Position numbers and translations under genes: made by a program
Assembly: GCA_009786735.1 (NCBI GenBank)
Contig: WQRM01000018.1
Location: 1 to 13,864 of the forward strand
Origin: Oscillospiraceae bacterium
Lineage (GTDB): Bacteria > Bacillota > Clostridia > Oscillospirales > Acutalibacteraceae
Length of the DNA stretch: 13,864 bases
Reading direction: 5' to 3'
Shown: positions 5,167 to 13,864 of the stretch, piece by piece
Position numbering within the stretch: the stretch's first letter is position 1
How the letters are laid out: each line of letters begins with the position of its first letter
Notes under the pieces: model-generated
Seen by the model: the letters and a program-made list of their open reading frames with translations, nothing else
The model's database searches: none
Told to the model about the DNA's origin: nothing

Positions 5167-6015
5167 TCATTTCACAATCCGCATGCTGATATTCGCCGCC
5201 TGCACCGAATGCGTCACCGCGCCCAGGCTCAACACATCCACGCCGGTTTGCGCAACCTCGCGGGCATTCGCAAGTGTGATGTCACCCGACGCCTCCGCAA
5301 TCACGGCACGCGGCTGTCCGCGCAGCCAGCTCACTGCCTCTCGCATCGCTTCAATCGTCATGTTGTCCAGCATAATCACATCCGCGCCGGCAGCATAGGC
5401 CTGCTGCACCTCATCAAGATTGCGCGTCTCCACCTCAATTTTCACCATGTGCCCAACGCCCGCGCGCACCTGCGCCACCGCCCGCTCAATGCTCCCACAA
5501 GCATCCACGTGGTTATCTTTGAGCATCACCGCATCGCTCAAGTTAAAGCGATGGTTGCGCCCACCGCCGCAGGTCACGGCATACTTCTGCAGTGCACGCA
5601 GCCCGGGCAGCGTCTTGCGCGTGTCGGCGATGGCAGCGCCTGTGCCTTCAACCGCCTCCACCAGCGCATGCGTCGCGGTTGCCACGCCCGTGAGGTGTTG
5701 CAGCAGATTCAACGCCGTGCGCTCGCCTTGCAGCAGCATAGCCGTTGGACCACGCAGCTCCAGCAGCACATCACCGCAGTTGAACCGCTCGCCATCACGT
5801 ACCTTCAGCTCGCAGGTCACGCCTTCGCCAAGCAGCGCAAACACGCGCGCGAAAATTTCACCGCCGCACATCACGCCAGCTTGATTCGCCACGAGATACG
5901 CACGGCTTTCGTGCTCCGGCGTGAACAAGTGCGCGCACGACAAATCAACATAGTGCATGTCCTCCTTCAGCGCGCGCAAAATCACATCATCCACGATAAA
6001 TTGCGGTAATTTCAC
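5167..6015 (-). CDS. nadC: Nicotinate-nucleotide pyrophosphorylase (carboxylating)
   Basis: This 282-residue quinolinate phosphoribosyltransferase makes nicotinate mononucleotide from quinolinate and PRPP. Conserved segments are ALKEDMHYVDLS, ERTALNLLQHLTGVATAT, ADTRKTLPGLRALQKYAV, CGGGRNHRFNLSDAVMLKDNH, KIEVETRNLDEV, ADVIMLDNM and VDVLSLGAVTHS. I chose the GTG at 6015 rather than the upstream frame opening at 6048. GGAGGAA lies six bases before this GTG, the protein then starts at KLPQFIVDDVI as expected, and GTG overlaps the nadB stop as GTGA. Coupled translation of NadB and NadC is therefore likely. The EASGDIT segment departs slightly from the more usual EASGGI. There is no terminator after the gene; a strong promoter for the next unit begins within two bases of its stop. 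Confidence 0.95.
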   Translation of the reverse strand: MKLPQFIVDDVILRALKEDMHYVDLSCAHLFTPEHESRAYLVANQAGVMCGGEIFARVFALLGEGVTCELKVRDGERFNCGDVLLELRGPTAMLLQGERTALNLLQHLTGVATATHALVEAVEGTGAAIADTRKTLPGLRALQKYAVTCGGGRNHRFNLSDAVMLKDNHVDACGSIERAVAQVRAGVGHMVKIEVETRNLDEVQQAYAAGADVIMLDNMTIEAMREAVSWLRGQPRAVIAEASGDITLANAREVAQTGVDVLSLGAVTHSVQAANISMRIVK

Positions 6016-7475
6016 AATAATTCCTCCAGTATCAACATCGCCACGCACGCAAGCGAGCGCAGCTCGGCAGACTCCCGCGTGGGCACGCCGGTTTCACGCA
6101 CAAGCTCTTCGTAAAGCGCCCGCATCTGCGCCGCCGCCGCAGGCAACTTCGCCTTGTTCGGGAACACGAAGAAGGTGTCCTGCATCGTCTGCTGAATCAG
6201 CTCTCGCTGATTCAATGCGTAATGCGTAAGTCGTAATTCGCAATTATTTGGGCGTTCACCGTGCGCTTCATTACGCATTACGCATTGCGCATTACGCATT
6301 ATATCCTCCGCCGCGCGCCGCCCAAACACCAGCGCCTCGGGCAGGCTGTTGCTCGCCAAGCGATTACCGCCATGCAAGCCCGTGTGTGCGCACTCCCCAG
6401 CGGCATAAAGCCCCGGCACGCTCGTGCGGCTGTGCAAGTCAACTTCCACGCCACCCATATGATAGTGCTGGCACGGGAACACCGGGATTAAATCTCGGGT
6501 AATGTCCACACCGTTGCGCAGGCAGTTGCGATATATCCCCGGGAAGCGCTGGCGCAAAAATGCCTCGCCCCGGTGTCGAATGTCCAGGTAGATATCCGTG
6601 CTGCCCATGCGCTGGGTCTCCAGCACAATGGCACGGCTCACCACATCACGCGGGGCAAGCTCCTCGCGCGCATCATAGTGGTGCATAAAGCGCTCGTGCT
6701 CGGCGTTGAGCAACAGCCCGCCCTCGCCGCGCACCGCCTCGGTGATCAACGAACGTGAGATTTCATCTTCGCCGCCGCCCGCAAACGCCGTGGGATGAAA
6801 CTGCACATAGCGCATGTTGCGCAGCGTTGCGCCAAGCTCATAGGCCAAGCGGATGCCGTCGCCGGTGCACACTGCAGGGTTTGTCGTGTGGCGATACACC
6901 TGCCCGATGCCGCCGGTGGCCAGCAGCAAAAAGTCGCAGGTGAAGCGTTGCGGCTGCCCACCCAACAGCGCATCCACCGCAAAGCCGCCGCCCGCAAGCT
7001 TTTCCGCAGCATAGACCGTGGCATCCTCCAACAGCGTAGCGTTCGCTTGCTCGCGCACATGCGGCACCAACTTGTCCATCATCTCGCGACCGGTGCGGTC
7101 GGCATGATGCACCACCCGGCGGCGGCTGTGTCCGCCCTCGATGGTCGTGGCGAGCTCACCTTCAGGCGTGCGATCAAACTGCACGCCAAGGCTCATCACG
7201 CGGCGCACATCTTCAGGACCTTCATGCACCAGTGTTTCCACCGCATCAATGTCATTTTTATAGTTCCCCGCCGCCAGAGTATCATCGCGGTGCAGGGCAA
7301 AGCTGTCGTCTTCGCGTTCCAGCACCGCAGCCACACCGCCCTGCGCCATCGCAGAGCTGCTGTCTTTGGGCGCTTGTTTGCTCAGCAGCAGCACGCGCAT
7401 GTCGCTTTCGGCCAAGTGCAGCGCAGCATAAAGCCCGGCCAAGCCGCTGCCAACAATCACAACGTTATAATGCAT
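6012..7475 (-). CDS. nadB: L-aspartate oxidase, with an in-frame repeat insertion
   Basis: This 487-residue flavoenzyme oxidises aspartate to iminoaspartate, the first step of de novo NAD synthesis. It has the FAD dinucleotide motif VVIVGSGLAGLYAALHLAE, SSSAMAQGGVAAVL, EGGHSRRRVVHHADRTG, YVQFHPTAF, RGEGG, APRDVVSRAI, YHMGGVEVD, GECAHTGLHGGNRLASNSL and ALVFGRRAAED. The catalytic Arg/His set of the family is therefore present. Residues about 392-421, between the flavin domain and the C-terminal helical domain, are not NadB-like. They are the translation of an 87-bp inverted-repeat element (6214-6300). The reading frame is kept and normal NadB sequence resumes at QRELIQQTMQ. AGGAG lies five bases before ATG. 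The gene ends in a GTGA overlap with nadC. No nadA (quinolinate synthase) is adjacent, although it is needed for the next step. Confidence 0.95.
   Translation of the reverse strand: MHYNVVIVGSGLAGLYAALHLAESDMRVLLLSKQAPKDSSSAMAQGGVAAVLEREDDSFALHRDDTLAAGNYKNDIDAVETLVHEGPEDVRRVMSLGVQFDRTPEGELATTIEGGHSRRRVVHHADRTGREMMDKLVPHVREQANATLLEDATVYAAEKLAGGGFAVDALLGGQPQRFTCDFLLLATGGIGQVYRHTTNPAVCTGDGIRLAYELGATLRNMRYVQFHPTAFAGGGEDEISRSLITEAVRGEGGLLLNAEHERFMHHYDAREELAPRDVVSRAIVLETQRMGSTDIYLDIRHRGEAFLRQRFPGIYRNCLRNGVDITRDLIPVFPCQHYHMGGVEVDLHSRTSVPGLYAAGECAHTGLHGGNRLASNSLPEALVFGRRAAEDIMRNAQCVMRNEAHGERPNNCELRLTHYALNQRELIQQTMQDTFFVFPNKAKLPAAAAQMRALYEELVRETGVPTRESAELRSLACVAMLILEELL
6021..6027 (-). promoter_or_regulatory. 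Ribosome site fixing the nadC GTG start
   Basis: GGAGGAA on the minus strand lies inside the last nadB codons (LEEL), six bases before GTG at 6015. It decides the start against the longer frame opening at 6048. Confidence 0.8.
6214..6300. mobile_element. MITE-like inverted-repeat element inside nadB
   Basis: This 87-bp unit is bounded by a perfect 13-base inverted repeat (AATGCGTAATGCG at 6214-6226; its complement at 6288-6300). A second copy of CGCATTACGCATT lies at 6274-6286. Further related arms (GTAATTCGCAATTA on the left) allow a long imperfect hairpin around a short unique centre (GGGCGTTCACCGTGCGC). Its length is exactly 29 codons and all codons are sense in the nadB frame, so the gene is not broken. 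No transposase is encoded. The motif family is echoed in AT-richer form around the terminator at 652-755. Confidence 0.75.
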
Positions 7476-9986: not shown

Positions 9987-11078
9987 TCACTTCTTCGCAC
10001 GCTTCGCCGCAAACTTCCGCGCCTTATACGCCATGATGTGCCGGCAGCACGCCGCCAAATCCTCTTGCGCAAGCGCGCGCACATGCGCAACGTCGGGGTA
10101 GTCACGGTCAGCGCTCGTCAAGTCCGCCGCCACGATAATCTGCTCCAGCACGCTCATGTCCTCGCGCCCCATCGTGTGATAGCGCACCGCGTCGAGCACC
10201 TCCTCATCGGCAATGCCCATGTACTCTTGCAGATACTCCGCACCCACCGCGCCGTGCATCCAGCCGTGCTCGGCCATGTGCTTGCCGCAGTCGTGCCACA
10301 GCCCCGCGAATCTCGCCTTGGCAGGGTCTGCACCATGGCGACGCGCCAGCTGCTCGGCGGCATCAGCCACGTTGCGGCTGTGCTGCAGCCGTTTGGGCGG
10401 CAGATTCGGCTCAATGTAAATCCCCTGCTCGCGGATATACGCCAACGCCGCAGGCGCAAGATACGCCGAAGCCTCCTCGCCCAGCGCCAGCATGCCCCGC
10501 AGCCGAGTGGAGCTAATCTCCACCGGCGCAAAGCAGCTCAACACATGCACCGGCAGCGGCGTTTGCAACGGCTCGGCATCGCGTTGCAGCGCACACACGG
10601 TGCACAGCCGCAGGATCTCCTCCCACTTGTGCCAGCGCGTGAACTTCGCCAGCTGGTCAGTGCCGATGAGCATGCATAGCTCCGCCTCGGGGTAGCGTTC
10701 GCGCAGTTGCAGCAGCGTGTCAATCGTGTAGCTCGTGCTGGTGCGCGCGAGTTCCATGTCGCTCACCGGGTAGCCAAACGTGCGGCGGCACAGTTCAAGC
10801 CGATGCTCGGCCGCCACGCTGGGATGCCCCTTGAGCGGCGATTGCGCAGTCGGCATGATCAACAACTCGTCCAGCTGCATCGCGCGCGCAAAGAATCGCG
10901 CAGCCGCCACATGACCAAGATGAGGGGGGTCAAACGCCCCCCCGTAAACGCCAAGTTTGCGCGTTGTTTCGGACGAGCAAAGCTCGTCCCTACGCGGATT
11001 CGGCCAATGGCCGCAACACATCATCTTCCCAACGCATTGGGTTTTCGCGGATATATTGTTGTATTGTTCGATATTCAT
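9987..11078 (-). CDS. nadD: Nicotinate-nucleotide adenylyltransferase fused to YqeK-type HD hydrolase
   Basis: This protein joins two enzymes that are separate neighbouring genes in Bacillus. The NadD part (residues 41-220 of the longest frame) transfers AMP to nicotinate mononucleotide. It shows KLGVYGGAFDPPHLGH with the nucleotidyltransferase GHxGH-like motif, IGTDQL, and the ISSTRLR loop. The HD part (about 228-355) shows H233, HD at 262-263, H275, H301 (RYHTMG) and D319, as in YqeK enzymes that split Ap4A symmetrically. There is almost no linker. The start is problematic. NadD normally begins two or three residues before KLGVYGG, but here that position is ACG with no ribosome site, and a REP hairpin sits immediately upstream. 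ATG codons in frame exist only inside the transposase gene (11078, 11024, 11021), none with a good ribosome site. The frame upstream of residue 40 is translated REP and transposase DNA. The stop is just before the lipoprotein gene. Confidence 0.88.
   Translation of the reverse strand: MNIEQYNNISAKTQCVGKMMCCGHWPNPRRDELCSSETTRKLGVYGGAFDPPHLGHVAAARFFARAMQLDELLIMPTAQSPLKGHPSVAAEHRLELCRRTFGYPVSDMELARTSTSYTIDTLLQLRERYPEAELCMLIGTDQLAKFTRWHKWEEILRLCTVCALQRDAEPLQTPLPVHVLSCFAPVEISSTRLRGMLALGEEASAYLAPAALAYIREQGIYIEPNLPPKRLQHSRNVADAAEQLARRHGADPAKARFAGLWHDCGKHMAEHGWMHGAVGAEYLQEYMGIADEEVLDAVRYHTMGREDMSVLEQIIVAADLTSADRDYPDVAHVRALAQEDLAACCRHIMAYKARKFAAKRAKK
10971..10993 (-). repeat. REP palindrome, nadD-side end of the RAYT unit (REP1)
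   Basis: On the minus strand this reads GTAG, GGACGAGC, loop TTT, GCTCGTCC. The TAG of GTAG is the transposase stop codon. The far edge of the stem lies six bases from an ACG codon that would be the natural start position of nadD. The accessory palindrome CGGCCAATGGCCG lies at 11001-11013. Confidence 0.88.
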
Positions 11079-11466
11079 CAGCGGTATCTACCACACGGTC
11101 GTGAAATTTCTCTTGCCACAGCGGAGCCTTGGCTTGCTTGGAAATCGCGCCCTTCCATTGCTGAATCACGCGCGAAACCGAAGGGTTTGTTTCATTGTTA
11201 ATCAGATGCAAAAGCATGTGCACATGATTAGGCATTATCACAAAGCTATCCATGACCACAGATGTGTATACTTGTTCGATGTCGCACAAATGTGCTTGCA
11301 CGATCTTCCCGATTTCGGATAAAACCATTTCATCGCCGTTAATTTCCCCAAACAATTCATGGCGGTCTTTCGTGCAAATAGTGAGAAAATATGCCCCATT
11401 ATGGCTATAGTTTTTGCCTGCAATACGATGATATTTTCGCGTTGGCCATTCTTTATCCACGTTCAA
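10990..11466 (-). CDS. REP-associated tyrosine transposase (RAYT, Y1/HUH family)
   Basis: This is a 158-residue single-domain nuclease of the TnpA_REP class, related to IS200/IS605 transposases. The metal-binding HUH motif is in MPNHVHMLL and the catalytic tyrosine is probably in EYRTIQQYIRENP. YFLTICTKDR near the N-terminus and the LWQEKFHDRVV block are typical of the family. RAYT enzymes nick single-stranded REP hairpins next to GTAG, and such hairpins flank this gene on both sides. There is no ATG: the frame opens at TTG (11466), with GTG at 11460 as an alternative. A G-rich stretch (GAGGGGTGG) lies about eight bases before TTG. The last residues (LAESA) and the TAG stop are encoded by the REP end itself. 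All expected motifs are intact, so it could be active. It overlaps the extended nadD frame in another phase. Confidence 0.9.
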   Translation of the reverse strand: MNVDKEWPTRKYHRIAGKNYSHNGAYFLTICTKDRHELFGEINGDEMVLSEIGKIVQAHLCDIEQVYTSVVMDSFVIMPNHVHMLLHLINNETNPSVSRVIQQWKGAISKQAKAPLWQEKFHDRVVDTADEYRTIQQYIRENPMRWEDDVLRPLAESA

Positions 11467-11504
11467 TCAGCGCACCACCCCTCACGGCCTTTGGCCGCAT
11501 CCGC

Positions 11505-11527
11505 GTAGGGACGAGCTTCGCTCGTCC
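11505..11527 (+). repeat. REP palindrome, upstream end of the RAYT unit (REP2)
   Basis: GTAG (11505-11508) is followed by GGACGAGC, loop TTC and GCTCGTCC, a perfect 8-bp stem. It is in inverted orientation to the copy at 10971-10993. The accessory palindrome CGGCCTTTGGCCG lies on the transposase side at 11485-11497. Confidence 0.88.
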
Positions 11528-11546
11528 GAACCTCTACAACTACGCG

Positions 11547-12365
11547 CTATTTCAACGAAATCTTGCGCTTGAGCAGCCAGTTGGTGATGAAGAAGAAGCC
11601 CGTCGCCAGCGCCAGCATCACAAACGCGCTGCTCACGTTATACACCGGCGCTAATCCACCGGCCAATTGCCCGCCAAAGTTCAGATGCACGTTAATCGCA
11701 GGCAGCAGCGGCGTGATGTTGCTCACCGCCAGCCAGCACACAATCGTGATGGCAACGAGGAAGATGAACGTCCACAGCCCGCTGCGGCGTTGGAAGCTGC
11801 GCACATGGCTCAGCGTAATCACAAACAGCACCACCATCATCGCCAGCACCAGGAACACCAGCGCTTCAATCAAGAAAAAGCCGATAAATAGCACAAATTC
11901 ATTCAGCGGCGGGAACTCCACAAACGCCCCCATCGCTTCCGGCGCAACTTCATACAGCAGGTCGTCGCCCGCCGCAGCCAGCACCCGCGTGATGTTGCTC
12001 ACCGTCACCGCAACCAGCGAAAGCGCAAGCGCCATGTTCACCAGCATCAGCACAACATTCGTCAGCAACTTGCCGCCCAGCAGCGCCGTAGACGACACCG
12101 GCAGCGAAAACGTCAGATATCCGCGCTCCGAAAACATCGAGCGGTTGGTATTCACCAGCAGCAAAATCACGCCCACAATTTGCATCACGCCTGCGCCAAA
12201 CAAAATCGCCGCATTCAGCAGCACCGCACCGGCGAACTGTCCGGGTCCGGGGTCTTGCCCCAACGTCACCAGCGCGCCAATCAGTCCTGCGCCCGCGCTG
12301 ATAATCAGCAGCCACATGAAGATGCGTCCGCTTTGGTGAAATTCGTGTTTGAGTAGTTTAAGCAT
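11547..12365 (-). CDS. ABC transporter permease, six-helix type
   Basis: This is a 272-residue integral membrane protein, the partner of the preceding ATPase. Six hydrophobic segments are visible, including FMWLLIISAGAGLIGALVTL, NAAILFGAGVMQIVGVILLL, LLTNVVLMLVNMALALSLVA, IEALVFLVLAMMVVLFVITL, LWTFIFLVAITIVCWLAV and FVMLALATGFFFITNWLL. The opening MLKLLKHEFHQSGRIF and the pattern of helices resemble ABC-2 type permeases of the YtrC/D or BcrB kind. The start is well fixed: AGGAGGTG lies seven bases before ATG, inside the end of the ATPase gene, giving an 8-base overlap. A basic tail (KRKISLK) follows the last helix. A REP hairpin lies about 20 bases after the stop. The transported substrate cannot be inferred. 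Confidence 0.85.
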   Translation of the reverse strand: MLKLLKHEFHQSGRIFMWLLIISAGAGLIGALVTLGQDPGPGQFAGAVLLNAAILFGAGVMQIVGVILLLVNTNRSMFSERGYLTFSLPVSSTALLGGKLLTNVVLMLVNMALALSLVAVTVSNITRVLAAAGDDLLYEVAPEAMGAFVEFPPLNEFVLFIGFFLIEALVFLVLAMMVVLFVITLSHVRSFQRRSGLWTFIFLVAITIVCWLAVSNITPLLPAINVHLNFGGQLAGGLAPVYNVSSAFVMLALATGFFFITNWLLKRKISLK

Positions 12366-13056
12366 AGGGAAACACCTCCTGGAACAACTGATTTAACGTC
12401 TTGCCTTGCTCGTTGAGATTGGCCACGCTGTCAAACAGCAACACTTGCTGGCGGCCAACCATCAACGCATAGTCAAACACTTTTTCCATGTCATACACCA
12501 TGTGTGTGGAAAGCAGCATCGTGCTGCCCTCGGGGCGGTTGCCCAAAATCGTGTCAGTAATAAACTGGCGCGCCGTGGGGTCAACCCCGCCGAGCGGTTC
12601 GTCCAACACATACAGCTTTGCGCTGCGGCACATCGTCAGCAACAGCAGCAGTTTTTCCTGCATACCCTTGCTCATCGTTTTCACGCGCATGCCGGGTCTC
12701 AGCTGCATTTGCTCCAGCATTTCAAAGGCCTTGGCTTTGTCAAAGTTGTCATAGAAATCGTCCATGTAGGTGATAGCCTGTTTGGCGGTCATCCACTGGG
12801 GCAGATAGGTTTTGTCGGGCAAAAACGCCACGTGCTCCTTGGTGTAAGGTCCAACCAGTTGGCCGTCCACAAACACCTCGCCTTTGTAGTCATTGATGAG
12901 CCCGGCGATGATTTTCATCAGCGTGGTTTTGCCGCAGCCATTAGGGCCCATCAGCCCCACAATGGCGCCGCTGGGCAACGCAAGGTTGATGTTATCCAGC
13001 ACCAGGTTGCTTTCATACGACTTGCGAAGCTGCTTGATTTCGAGAATGTTGCTCAT
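12358..13056 (-). CDS. ABC transporter ATP-binding protein (YtrB/CcmA-like)
   Basis: This is a 232-residue nucleotide-binding subunit of a two-gene exporter. Walker A is GPNGCGKTT (37-45), the signature is the degenerate MSKGMQEKL (128-136), Walker B is LYVLDEP (148-154) and the switch histidine is H185 (LLSTH). The FLPDKTYLPQ segment sits where the Q-loop is expected. This signature and the short length are typical of the YtrB/BcrA class, whose members pair with a six-helix permease and often act in peptide-antibiotic or cell-envelope stress export. The last codons overlap the permease start by 8 bases, so the two subunits are translationally coupled. A GAAGGA ribosome site lies about ten bases before ATG. 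No GntR-type (YtrA) regulator is visible upstream; the neighbour is an MFS gene. Substrate unknown. Confidence 0.9.
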   Translation of the reverse strand: MSNILEIKQLRKSYESNLVLDNINLALPSGAIVGLMGPNGCGKTTLMKIIAGLINDYKGEVFVDGQLVGPYTKEHVAFLPDKTYLPQWMTAKQAITYMDDFYDNFDKAKAFEMLEQMQLRPGMRVKTMSKGMQEKLLLLLTMCRSAKLYVLDEPLGGVDPTARQFITDTILGNRPEGSTMLLSTHMVYDMEKVFDYALMVGRQQVLLFDSVANLNEQGKTLNQLFQEVFPYA

Positions 13057-13106
13057 ACGAAATTTTTCCTTCTTTCTATTTTTTGTGCTAATCTGAAAAA
13101 GTGCGC

Positions 13107-13129
13107 GGACGAGCGAAGCTCGCCCCTAC
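13107..13129 (-). repeat. Solo REP palindrome (REP3) behind the MFS gene
   Basis: Read on the minus strand this is GTAG followed by GGGCGAGC, loop TTC, then GCTCGTCC: an 8-bp stem with one G-U pair. It matches the two REP copies flanking the transposase at 10971-10993 and 11505-11527 apart from one stem base and the loop. It lacks the second CGGCC hairpin that those copies carry. A T5 run lies six bases beyond the stem, so it could also weakly terminate the MFS transcript. Confidence 0.85.
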
Positions 13130-13864
13130 GCCGCCTCCGGCTCGGGCAGTTCTTGCGGCACATCGTCGTCCCCGTCGTCCAGTTCTTCTTTGCTTGCCTC
13201 ACCGTGGCGCACAAACAGCAGCGACAGCCCCGCAAACACAAACATCACCGGGATGTAATAGAACATCGACATATACGTGCGGGTGAACAGCACAAAGAAA
13301 CCAAACGAGATTGGCGCAATGATTTGCGCGCTGAACGTGGCGATGTAGTAGTAGCCCGTGAAGGTGCCCACGCGCCGTTTGCCGCCGAGCTCAACCACCA
13401 TGGGCATCGCATTCACCAGCAGCATCATCGATGCTAAGCCCGCCACAATCAGCACCGGGAAGATCAACGAGTTCAGCGTGCGCAGATTCGCCTGAATGGC
13501 CGTCTGCATACGCGCGAAGGCATCGCCAACATCGGTGTAGTCCGTCTCAAACACGCCGTTGACCATGCTCGGCAAGTGCGCGAAGTCTCCGGCGTGTTGC
13601 GCCACAAATTCATTCGTGGTGATCGTCGGCGCATCCTCCGCGTTGAAGGGAACGCCCGCTGCTTCAGCAGCTTCTCTGGCCGCTGTAATAATCGGCGCGT
13701 TGTATTGCATGGTTTGGTCTGTCACTTCAACATACACATGGTTGAGCGTGGTGTATTGGTTCATCGTCATGCCATTGCGCGAGCTGCTCACCAGGAACAC
13801 CCCAAAGAACGTCACCAGCGCCGCCATGATGATGCACAGCCCGGCGACCATCGTGTTGCGGCGG
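13126..13864 (-). CDS. MFS transporter, C-terminal part (runs off the right edge)
   Basis: The frame is still open at the window edge (upstream residues read RRNT), so the methionine at 13851 is probably internal and the N-terminal half is missing. A hydrophobic segment (MVAGLCIIMAALVTFFGVF) is followed by a soluble stretch of about 90 residues. Three or four membrane segments follow: LIFPVLIVAGLASMMLLV, a helix after GGKRRVGTFTGYYYIATF, and YIPVMFVFAGLSLLFV. The tail is acidic (EELDDGDDDVPQELPEPEAA). The G-G-K-R-R-x-G loop followed by GYYYIATFSAQ resembles MFS permeases of the SLC45/sugar type common in Clostridia, an assignment by resemblance only; the substrate is unknown. The stop codon TAG is part of the GTAG foot of a REP hairpin directly behind the gene. 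The next gene starts 69 bases downstream. Confidence 0.75.
   Translation of the reverse strand, partial: RRNTMVAGLCIIMAALVTFFGVFLVSSSRNGMTMNQYTTLNHVYVEVTDQTMQYNAPIITAAREAAEAAGVPFNAEDAPTITTNEFVAQHAGDFAHLPSMVNGVFETDYTDVGDAFARMQTAIQANLRTLNSLIFPVLIVAGLASMMLLVNAMPMVVELGGKRRVGTFTGYYYIATFSAQIIAPISFGFFVLFTRTYMSMFYYIPVMFVFAGLSLLFVRHGEASKEELDDGDDDVPQELPEPEAA

Follow-up and report, generated by a model that had tools for sequence, protein, structure and literature searches.

REP sequences tagged with GTAG and accompanied by RAYT-type transposases, the use of the TAG of such REPs as stop codons and the coupling of translation through overlapping stop and start codons are all already described in the available parts of five papers (PMC12548453, PMC10666635, PMC3733652, PMC8266576, and PMC6006769). 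With regard to the distances over which coupling operates, the accessible text of PMC12548453 reports that the lysis genes of phages fr and MS2 couple at −38 and −50 nucleotides (nt), that one study found no coupling at −25 nt, that others recorded a steep loss as the overlap grows, and that a start at +25 nt was coupled in another; the accessible text of PMC10666635 has intergenic distances of about 20 nt nearly abolishing coupling or reinitiation. Why RAYTs are so stably maintained is posed as a question in the available portion of PMC6006769.

Here, we describe a 13,864-nt window (contig WQRM01000018.1 of the draft assembly GCA_009786735.1 from an uncultured Oscillospiraceae bacterium; "window" denotes this whole stretch) in which, as comparison with relatives shows, a REP-RAYT-REP unit separates nadD from the gene of an ABC permease, breaking their overlap and leaving no canonical start beside the NadD core. 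On balance, we think it probable that NadD is now initiated at a pair of ATG codons (11024/11021) in the terminal stretch of the transposase gene, perhaps with the help of the ribosomes that translate the transposase, after the unit broke the overlap with the permease gene.

A REP-RAYT-REP unit separates the permease gene from nadD

The core of nadD, which is fused to yqeK, runs on the minus strand from KLGVYGG to the stop codon (9987..10958) and was assigned by the Pfam CTP_transf_like and HD domains and by NCBIfam models; on the 363-aa open reading frame (ORF), the curated NadD model TIGR00482 scores 126.1 bits (cutoff, 112.45) and TIGR00488 scores 88.7 bits (cutoff, 70.15). The motif GGxFxPPHxGH is conserved across 53 aligned NadD sequences, and the NadD of the window keeps its motifs. 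Also on the minus strand are the permease gene (11547..12365), which the gene order in relatives identifies as the former neighbor of nadD, and an ABC ATPase gene overlapping it by 8 nt (12358..13056), both named from their translations. The window also carries nadB and nadC, assigned by the same reading of translations; nadA is on another contig. The nadB-nadC pair overlaps as GTGA with GGAGG upstream (6012 to 6048), and nadC likely starts at the GTG at 6015 rather than at the longer ORF start at 6048.

The inserted gene (10990..11466, minus strand) encodes 158 aa from a TTG, with a GTG at 11460 as another possible start, and contains a Y1 transposase domain (PF01797, Y1_Tnp; 31.3 bits, above the cutoff of 23). 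Its best NCBIfam match, NF047646 (REP_Tyr_transpos), scores 71.2 bits, below the cutoff of 80, and for this reason we call the protein RAYT-type by virtue of its REPs and not a certified member of that family. Its segments MPNHVHMLL and IQQYIRENP are candidates for the HUH and catalytic tyrosine motifs. Matches to solved structures were weak, comprising ISDra2-type transposases (E = 0.057 to 0.063) and, scoring better than these, an antibody chain that is a chance match (E = 0.021).

The right REP (10968..11013, minus strand) consists of a GTAG tag and the hairpin GGACGAGC/GCTCGTCC with a TTT loop, and its TAG is the stop codon of the transposase gene (10992 to 10990), relative to which the nadD frame is +1. 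The left REP (11485..11531, plus strand) is inverted with respect to the right one and 93% alike. Since GTAG adjoins the hairpin in the aligned REP copies, and parts of the unit have 29 matches in their own genome, one of them full length, with the REP recurring, the transposase gene is flanked by inverted, GTAG-tagged, dispersed REPs. The aligned copies diverge past GTCCG(A/C)A, which places the end of the unit at about 10968; on this account, the nine bases ACAACGCGC that precede the AAA codon of nadD look like flanking DNA rather than part of the unit. No exact empty site or target site duplication was found, the flanks sharing by eye only short GC-rich words; the ATG may have disappeared with the insertion itself or afterward. 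A search of 10900 to 11650 for promoter-like sites returned none, against 1.0 in shuffled sequences.

Several further features of these repeats may be recorded. Many REPs of this genome form inverted pairs about 70 to 95 nt apart in a REPIN-like manner (window 10968 to 11531; loci L034, L037, L038, and L047). A single REP at 13106 to 13131 supplies the TAG stop of the gene at 13126 to 13851; its counterpart in the related genome G001 has GCGTAA at its end and is followed, about 60 nt downstream and before the ABC ATPase gene, by a RAYT unit (65% identical). Another related REP-flanked RAYT (68%) in that genome (L067; G001:C11:39029-39496) has a REP that begins directly after an upstream stop codon, and the genes flanking it are presumably pyrB and pyrI. 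Finally, the C terminus PNSRRDDLRSSETKE of a 170-aa database RAYT (P0125) much resembles the segment PNPRRDELCSSETTR of the NadD extension described below; in that relative, the REP is thus read, in the frame of the nadD extension, as a transposase tail.

The permease-nadD junction across the genus

A search of the genus yielded 14 genomes, all with the permease gene, in which 15 permease-nadD junctions were read, that of the window included (G005 has two). In 8 of the 15, the permease stop and the nadD start overlap, as ATGA (G004, G006, G008, G009, and G012), GTGA (G011), or TAATG (G002 and G010); judged from the codons, these relatives have the overlapping arrangement that is typical of translational coupling. 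One more nadD starts 7 nt after the permease stop (G003), and DNA intervenes in the other six, namely, the RAYT unit of the window (G000), about 250 nt (G001), a RAYT (G013), a palindrome array (G005b), about 60 nt (G005a), and about 100 nt (G007). The RAYT of G013 (L109, 7540 to 8420) is 40% identical to that of the window and has different palindromes, and the nadD gene next to it keeps an ATG with a ribosome site. The insert of G001 belongs to a dispersed repeat whose matches number at least 71 in G001, at least 65 in G010, and 32 in G000 (40 of the candidates were scored for G001 and G010). This repeat, of about 180 to 250 nt, is found before nadD in G001 (L107, 7060 to 7305) and at the 3′ end of nadD in G010 (G010:C28:15384-15563), where the NadD protein continues into the repeat copy. 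Given the inserts at the junction and the repeat at the 3′ end in G010, the borders of nadD are often hit by repeats.

The window stands apart in the position of the nearest in-frame start. Each of the 14 other junctions has an ATG or GTG no more than 12 codons away from the conserved GG, and among the six interrupted junctions, the window alone was left without a close start. A wider scan took in the best 30 of 60 genomes plus three loci of the genus; of these 33 sources, 30 showed the motif, corresponding to 28 distinct loci (G013 and G005b were entered twice), and the nearest in-frame start is 4 to 16 codons before the GG in the other motif-bearing loci as opposed to 26 in the window. The three without the motif in the scan (L004, L005, and L022) were read directly and have an ATG 1 to 3 codons before the matched stretch. 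The NadD proteins of relatives begin, for example, with MKLG, MRIG, MLRLG, or MTRIG.

A sequence-only reading of this DNA had proposed that the RAYT insertion removed the nadD start, with a comparison of the 5′ end of nadD in close relatives as a check. The comparison bears out that the unit was inserted, that it occupies the place where nadD used to start, and that the relatives lack the extended N terminus; what was lost, however, is mainly the overlap with the permease stop, and G010, for one, also has no Shine-Dalgarno sequence there.

Candidate starts of nadD

Direct reading of the minus strand gives GAA ACA ACG CGC AAA CTT in the nadD frame. It agrees with the earlier reading in codons and coordinates: an ACG (10964 to 10962) lies exactly where the NadD start is expected, the REP stem ends (10971) six bases upstream of it (10970 to 10965), and in-frame ATGs (11078, 11024, and 11021) occur only inside the transposase gene. 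The frame is open upstream to 11087, and as far back as that position it has no GTG or TTG upstream of the NadD core; further starts 3′ of the beginning of the core all lie behind the conserved GGxFxPPHxGH motif. The most likely present starts of NadD are the adjacent ATGs (11019..11024, minus strand), which would yield 345 and 344 aa and overlap the transposase gene up to its stop by 35 and 32 nt. The third ATG (11076..11078, minus strand; 363 aa) overlaps it by 89 nt, and the ACG adjoining the core (10962..10964, minus strand), a rival start, comes 25 nt after the stop. From the ATG pair, the open frame runs over the 3′ end of the transposase gene and the right REP (MMCCGHWPNPRRDELCSSETTR; 10959..11024, minus strand), with CCGHWPNPRRDELCSSETTR as the stretch encoded in the NadD extension; the database protein P0001 is called from 11021. 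Of the three frames leaving the element, only that of nadD carries upstream ATGs, so finding one there had roughly a one-in-three chance and is no sign of design.

We scored ribosome sites as the pairing with the 16S rRNA tail upstream of each candidate start. The baseline was the best candidate per ORF for 220 of the 222 long ORFs in 20 stretches of the same genome (median, −8.3 kcal/mol, a best-of-many value that flatters real starts), and 854 random ATGs gave a median of −2.2 kcal/mol. The values are −2.8 for the ATG at 11078, −2.0 at 11024, −4.2 at 11021, and −1.9 kcal/mol for the ACG, equaled or bettered by 40%, 54%, 21%, and 55% of random ATGs, respectively; hence, none of the three ATGs or the ACG has a Shine-Dalgarno sequence clearly above random ATGs. 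The best site is at or below −4.2 kcal/mol in 89% of the 220 ORFs and weaker in about 11%. The start of the transposase gene scores −8.4 kcal/mol, with a Shine-Dalgarno-like GAGGGG at 11483 to 11478. Among the three relatives scored, the nadD start is at −0.9 in G010, where it overlaps the permease stop, −5.9 at its own ATG in G013, and −4.7 kcal/mol at a TTG beside the ATG in G001. In the window, then, the overlap is gone and no ribosome site is seen to have been rebuilt, in contrast to G013. Predicted RNA structure around 11024 and 11021 has mean unpaired probabilities of 0.34 and 0.32 and local folds of −15.0 and −19.1 kcal/mol, and the predicted fold at the ACG is strong (−21.1 kcal/mol). 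The region from 10930 to 11100 as a whole has a z score of −1.89, with 6 of 200 shuffles folding as well.

Integrity and uniqueness of nadD

The dN/dS of the window nadD is 0.130 against G001 and 0.145 against G010 (0.114 for the G001-G010 pair), the highest of seven genes compared, the six others ranging from 0.040 to 0.107. These values point to purifying selection on NadD, with the proviso that a dS near 1 would hide recent change. Unique residues in the three nadD genes number 37, 18, and 27, the window having the largest number, and the permease has the same tilt (26, 6, and 6). Relaxed selection was considered and set aside, there being no nadD-specific sign of it beyond the somewhat high dN/dS.

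The draft comprises 227 contigs and is 70.58% complete; in this recovered part of the genome, no second nadD, which would have spoken against the sequence-only reading, is found among the PF01467 matches. Apart from nadD, PF01467 matched a single gene, which we read as coaD in view of its sequence and the genes around it. The identical extended protein (P0001, for which the start at 11021 is a prediction) occurs on three contigs of up to 70,544 bases, which are perhaps not independent, and the protein database lists no other member of its 90% cluster. In some solved NadD chains, the alignment begins only after 19 to 47 residues (at position 20 in 1yul and 48 in 4wso), suggesting that NadD can tolerate additional residues there, although those in the solved chains may be tags.

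How NadD might be initiated

Initiation at 11024/11021 would add an extension of 21 to 22 residues, mostly REP encoded, to NadD. With less certainty, ribosomes translating or terminating on the transposase gene probably aid this initiation, in which case the upstream coupling partner would have switched from the permease to the transposase. We propose such help because the ATG pair, for which there is no convincing ribosome site, is placed in structured RNA 32 to 35 nt before the stop of a gene whose own ribosome site is good. Coupling to the transposase, to whatever degree, is plausible and would fit the anatomy, while published data on long overlaps are mixed: the starts in the window are at −35/−32 nt from the transposase stop, and the accessible text of PMC12548453 has coupling at −38 and −50 nt in phages and none at −25 nt. 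Against this, poor expression would account for the weak ribosome sites just as well as coupling would. The stronger version, in which NadD production depends on transposase translation, such that NadD would no longer be made once the transposase was lost or silenced and the host would have to retain the element, strikes us as rather doubtful. A transposase-NadD fusion by frameshifting was also considered; it needs a +1 shift, and no known slippery motif was recognized.

The upstream ATGs (11024/11021 or 11078) might instead serve alone, independently of transposase translation. AUG codons are usable with weak ribosome sites, and the −4.2 kcal/mol at 11021 is reached by 21% of random ATGs; a best site as weak as this is nevertheless found in only about 11% of the 220 ORFs, and the start is in predicted structured RNA, so we regard unaided initiation as fairly unlikely. 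ACG is a very poor start codon in bacteria, and initiation there is less likely than at the ATG pair. A start at 10964, whether ribosomes reinitiated past the transposase stop or made one of the rare initiations at a non-AUG codon, would give a near-native N terminus in keeping with those of the relatives, and the transposase ribosomes end just 25 nt before it; yet its pairing (−1.9 kcal/mol) is like that of random ATGs, the local fold is strong (−21.1 kcal/mol), and reinitiation is nearly lost at about +20 nt according to the accessible text of PMC10666635, even though +25 nt was coupled in another study (PMC12548453, available part). We judge this route improbable.

That nadD is poorly expressed or silent, with NAD made through another nadD copy or a bypass that the draft lacks, or with the gene decaying, would suit a genome recovered to 70.58% and a gene with no good ribosome site. 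We nonetheless give this little credence: the frame is intact and under apparent purifying selection (which would not register a recent event), nadA, nadB, and nadC are present, and the sole other PF01467 match reads as coaD. It is least credible, and in our estimate very improbable, that the junction stems from misassembly or from a minor strain variant. Repeats in a draft of 227 contigs do invite chimeras, but the permease and nadD flanks are neighbors in every one of the 14 other junctions, the draft contains the full-length unit only once, and a one-off error would not readily place the identical extended protein on three contigs of up to 70,544 bases.

Comparison with described systems

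For each REP type, a single full-length RAYT gene tends to be retained, according to the accessible text of PMC6006769. If translation of the transposase does feed a housekeeping gene, the element would thereby have a specific route to being locked in. Within the genus, moreover, this one junction forms a natural series, from overlap in 8 of 15 cases through repeat insertions that range from a nadD with its own ribosome site (G013) to one with a lost start (the window). In a literature search by titles and beginnings of abstracts, we recognized no report of a RAYT unit that supplies the only ATGs of a housekeeping gene or takes over the start of a neighbor. The terms "Firmicutes" and "Clostridi" are absent from the available text of PMC3733652, and that of PMC6006769 ties Clostridia only to an insertion sequence subclass; a REPtron in the family of the window may for this reason be little described.

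The unit resembles REPtrons in its Y1 transposase, its inverted GTAG REPs on both sides, and the dispersal of these REPs in the genome, as well as in drawing a stop codon from the TAG of the REP, which the available part of PMC3733652 reports for GTAG REPs. It differs in sitting on the start of a housekeeping gene, for which it supplies the only in-frame ATGs, and in its host family, which is absent from the families named in the available parts of PMC3733652 and PMC6006769. Moreover, REPtrons apparently do not move as a unit, according to the accessible text of PMC6006769, whereas related REP-flanked RAYTs (65 to 68%) are found elsewhere in G001. Coupled pairs with overlaps of −4 or −1 nt have their like in 8 of the 15 junctions of the genus and in the nadB-nadC pair of the window (GTGA); the nadD of the window has, instead, a long overlap with the transposase gene. 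In this respect, it resembles the coat and lysis genes of phages fr and MS2 as presented in the available part of PMC12548453, where the downstream start is tens of bases inside the upstream gene and near hairpins. In the window, the upstream gene is that of a mobile element and the downstream one encodes a housekeeping enzyme.
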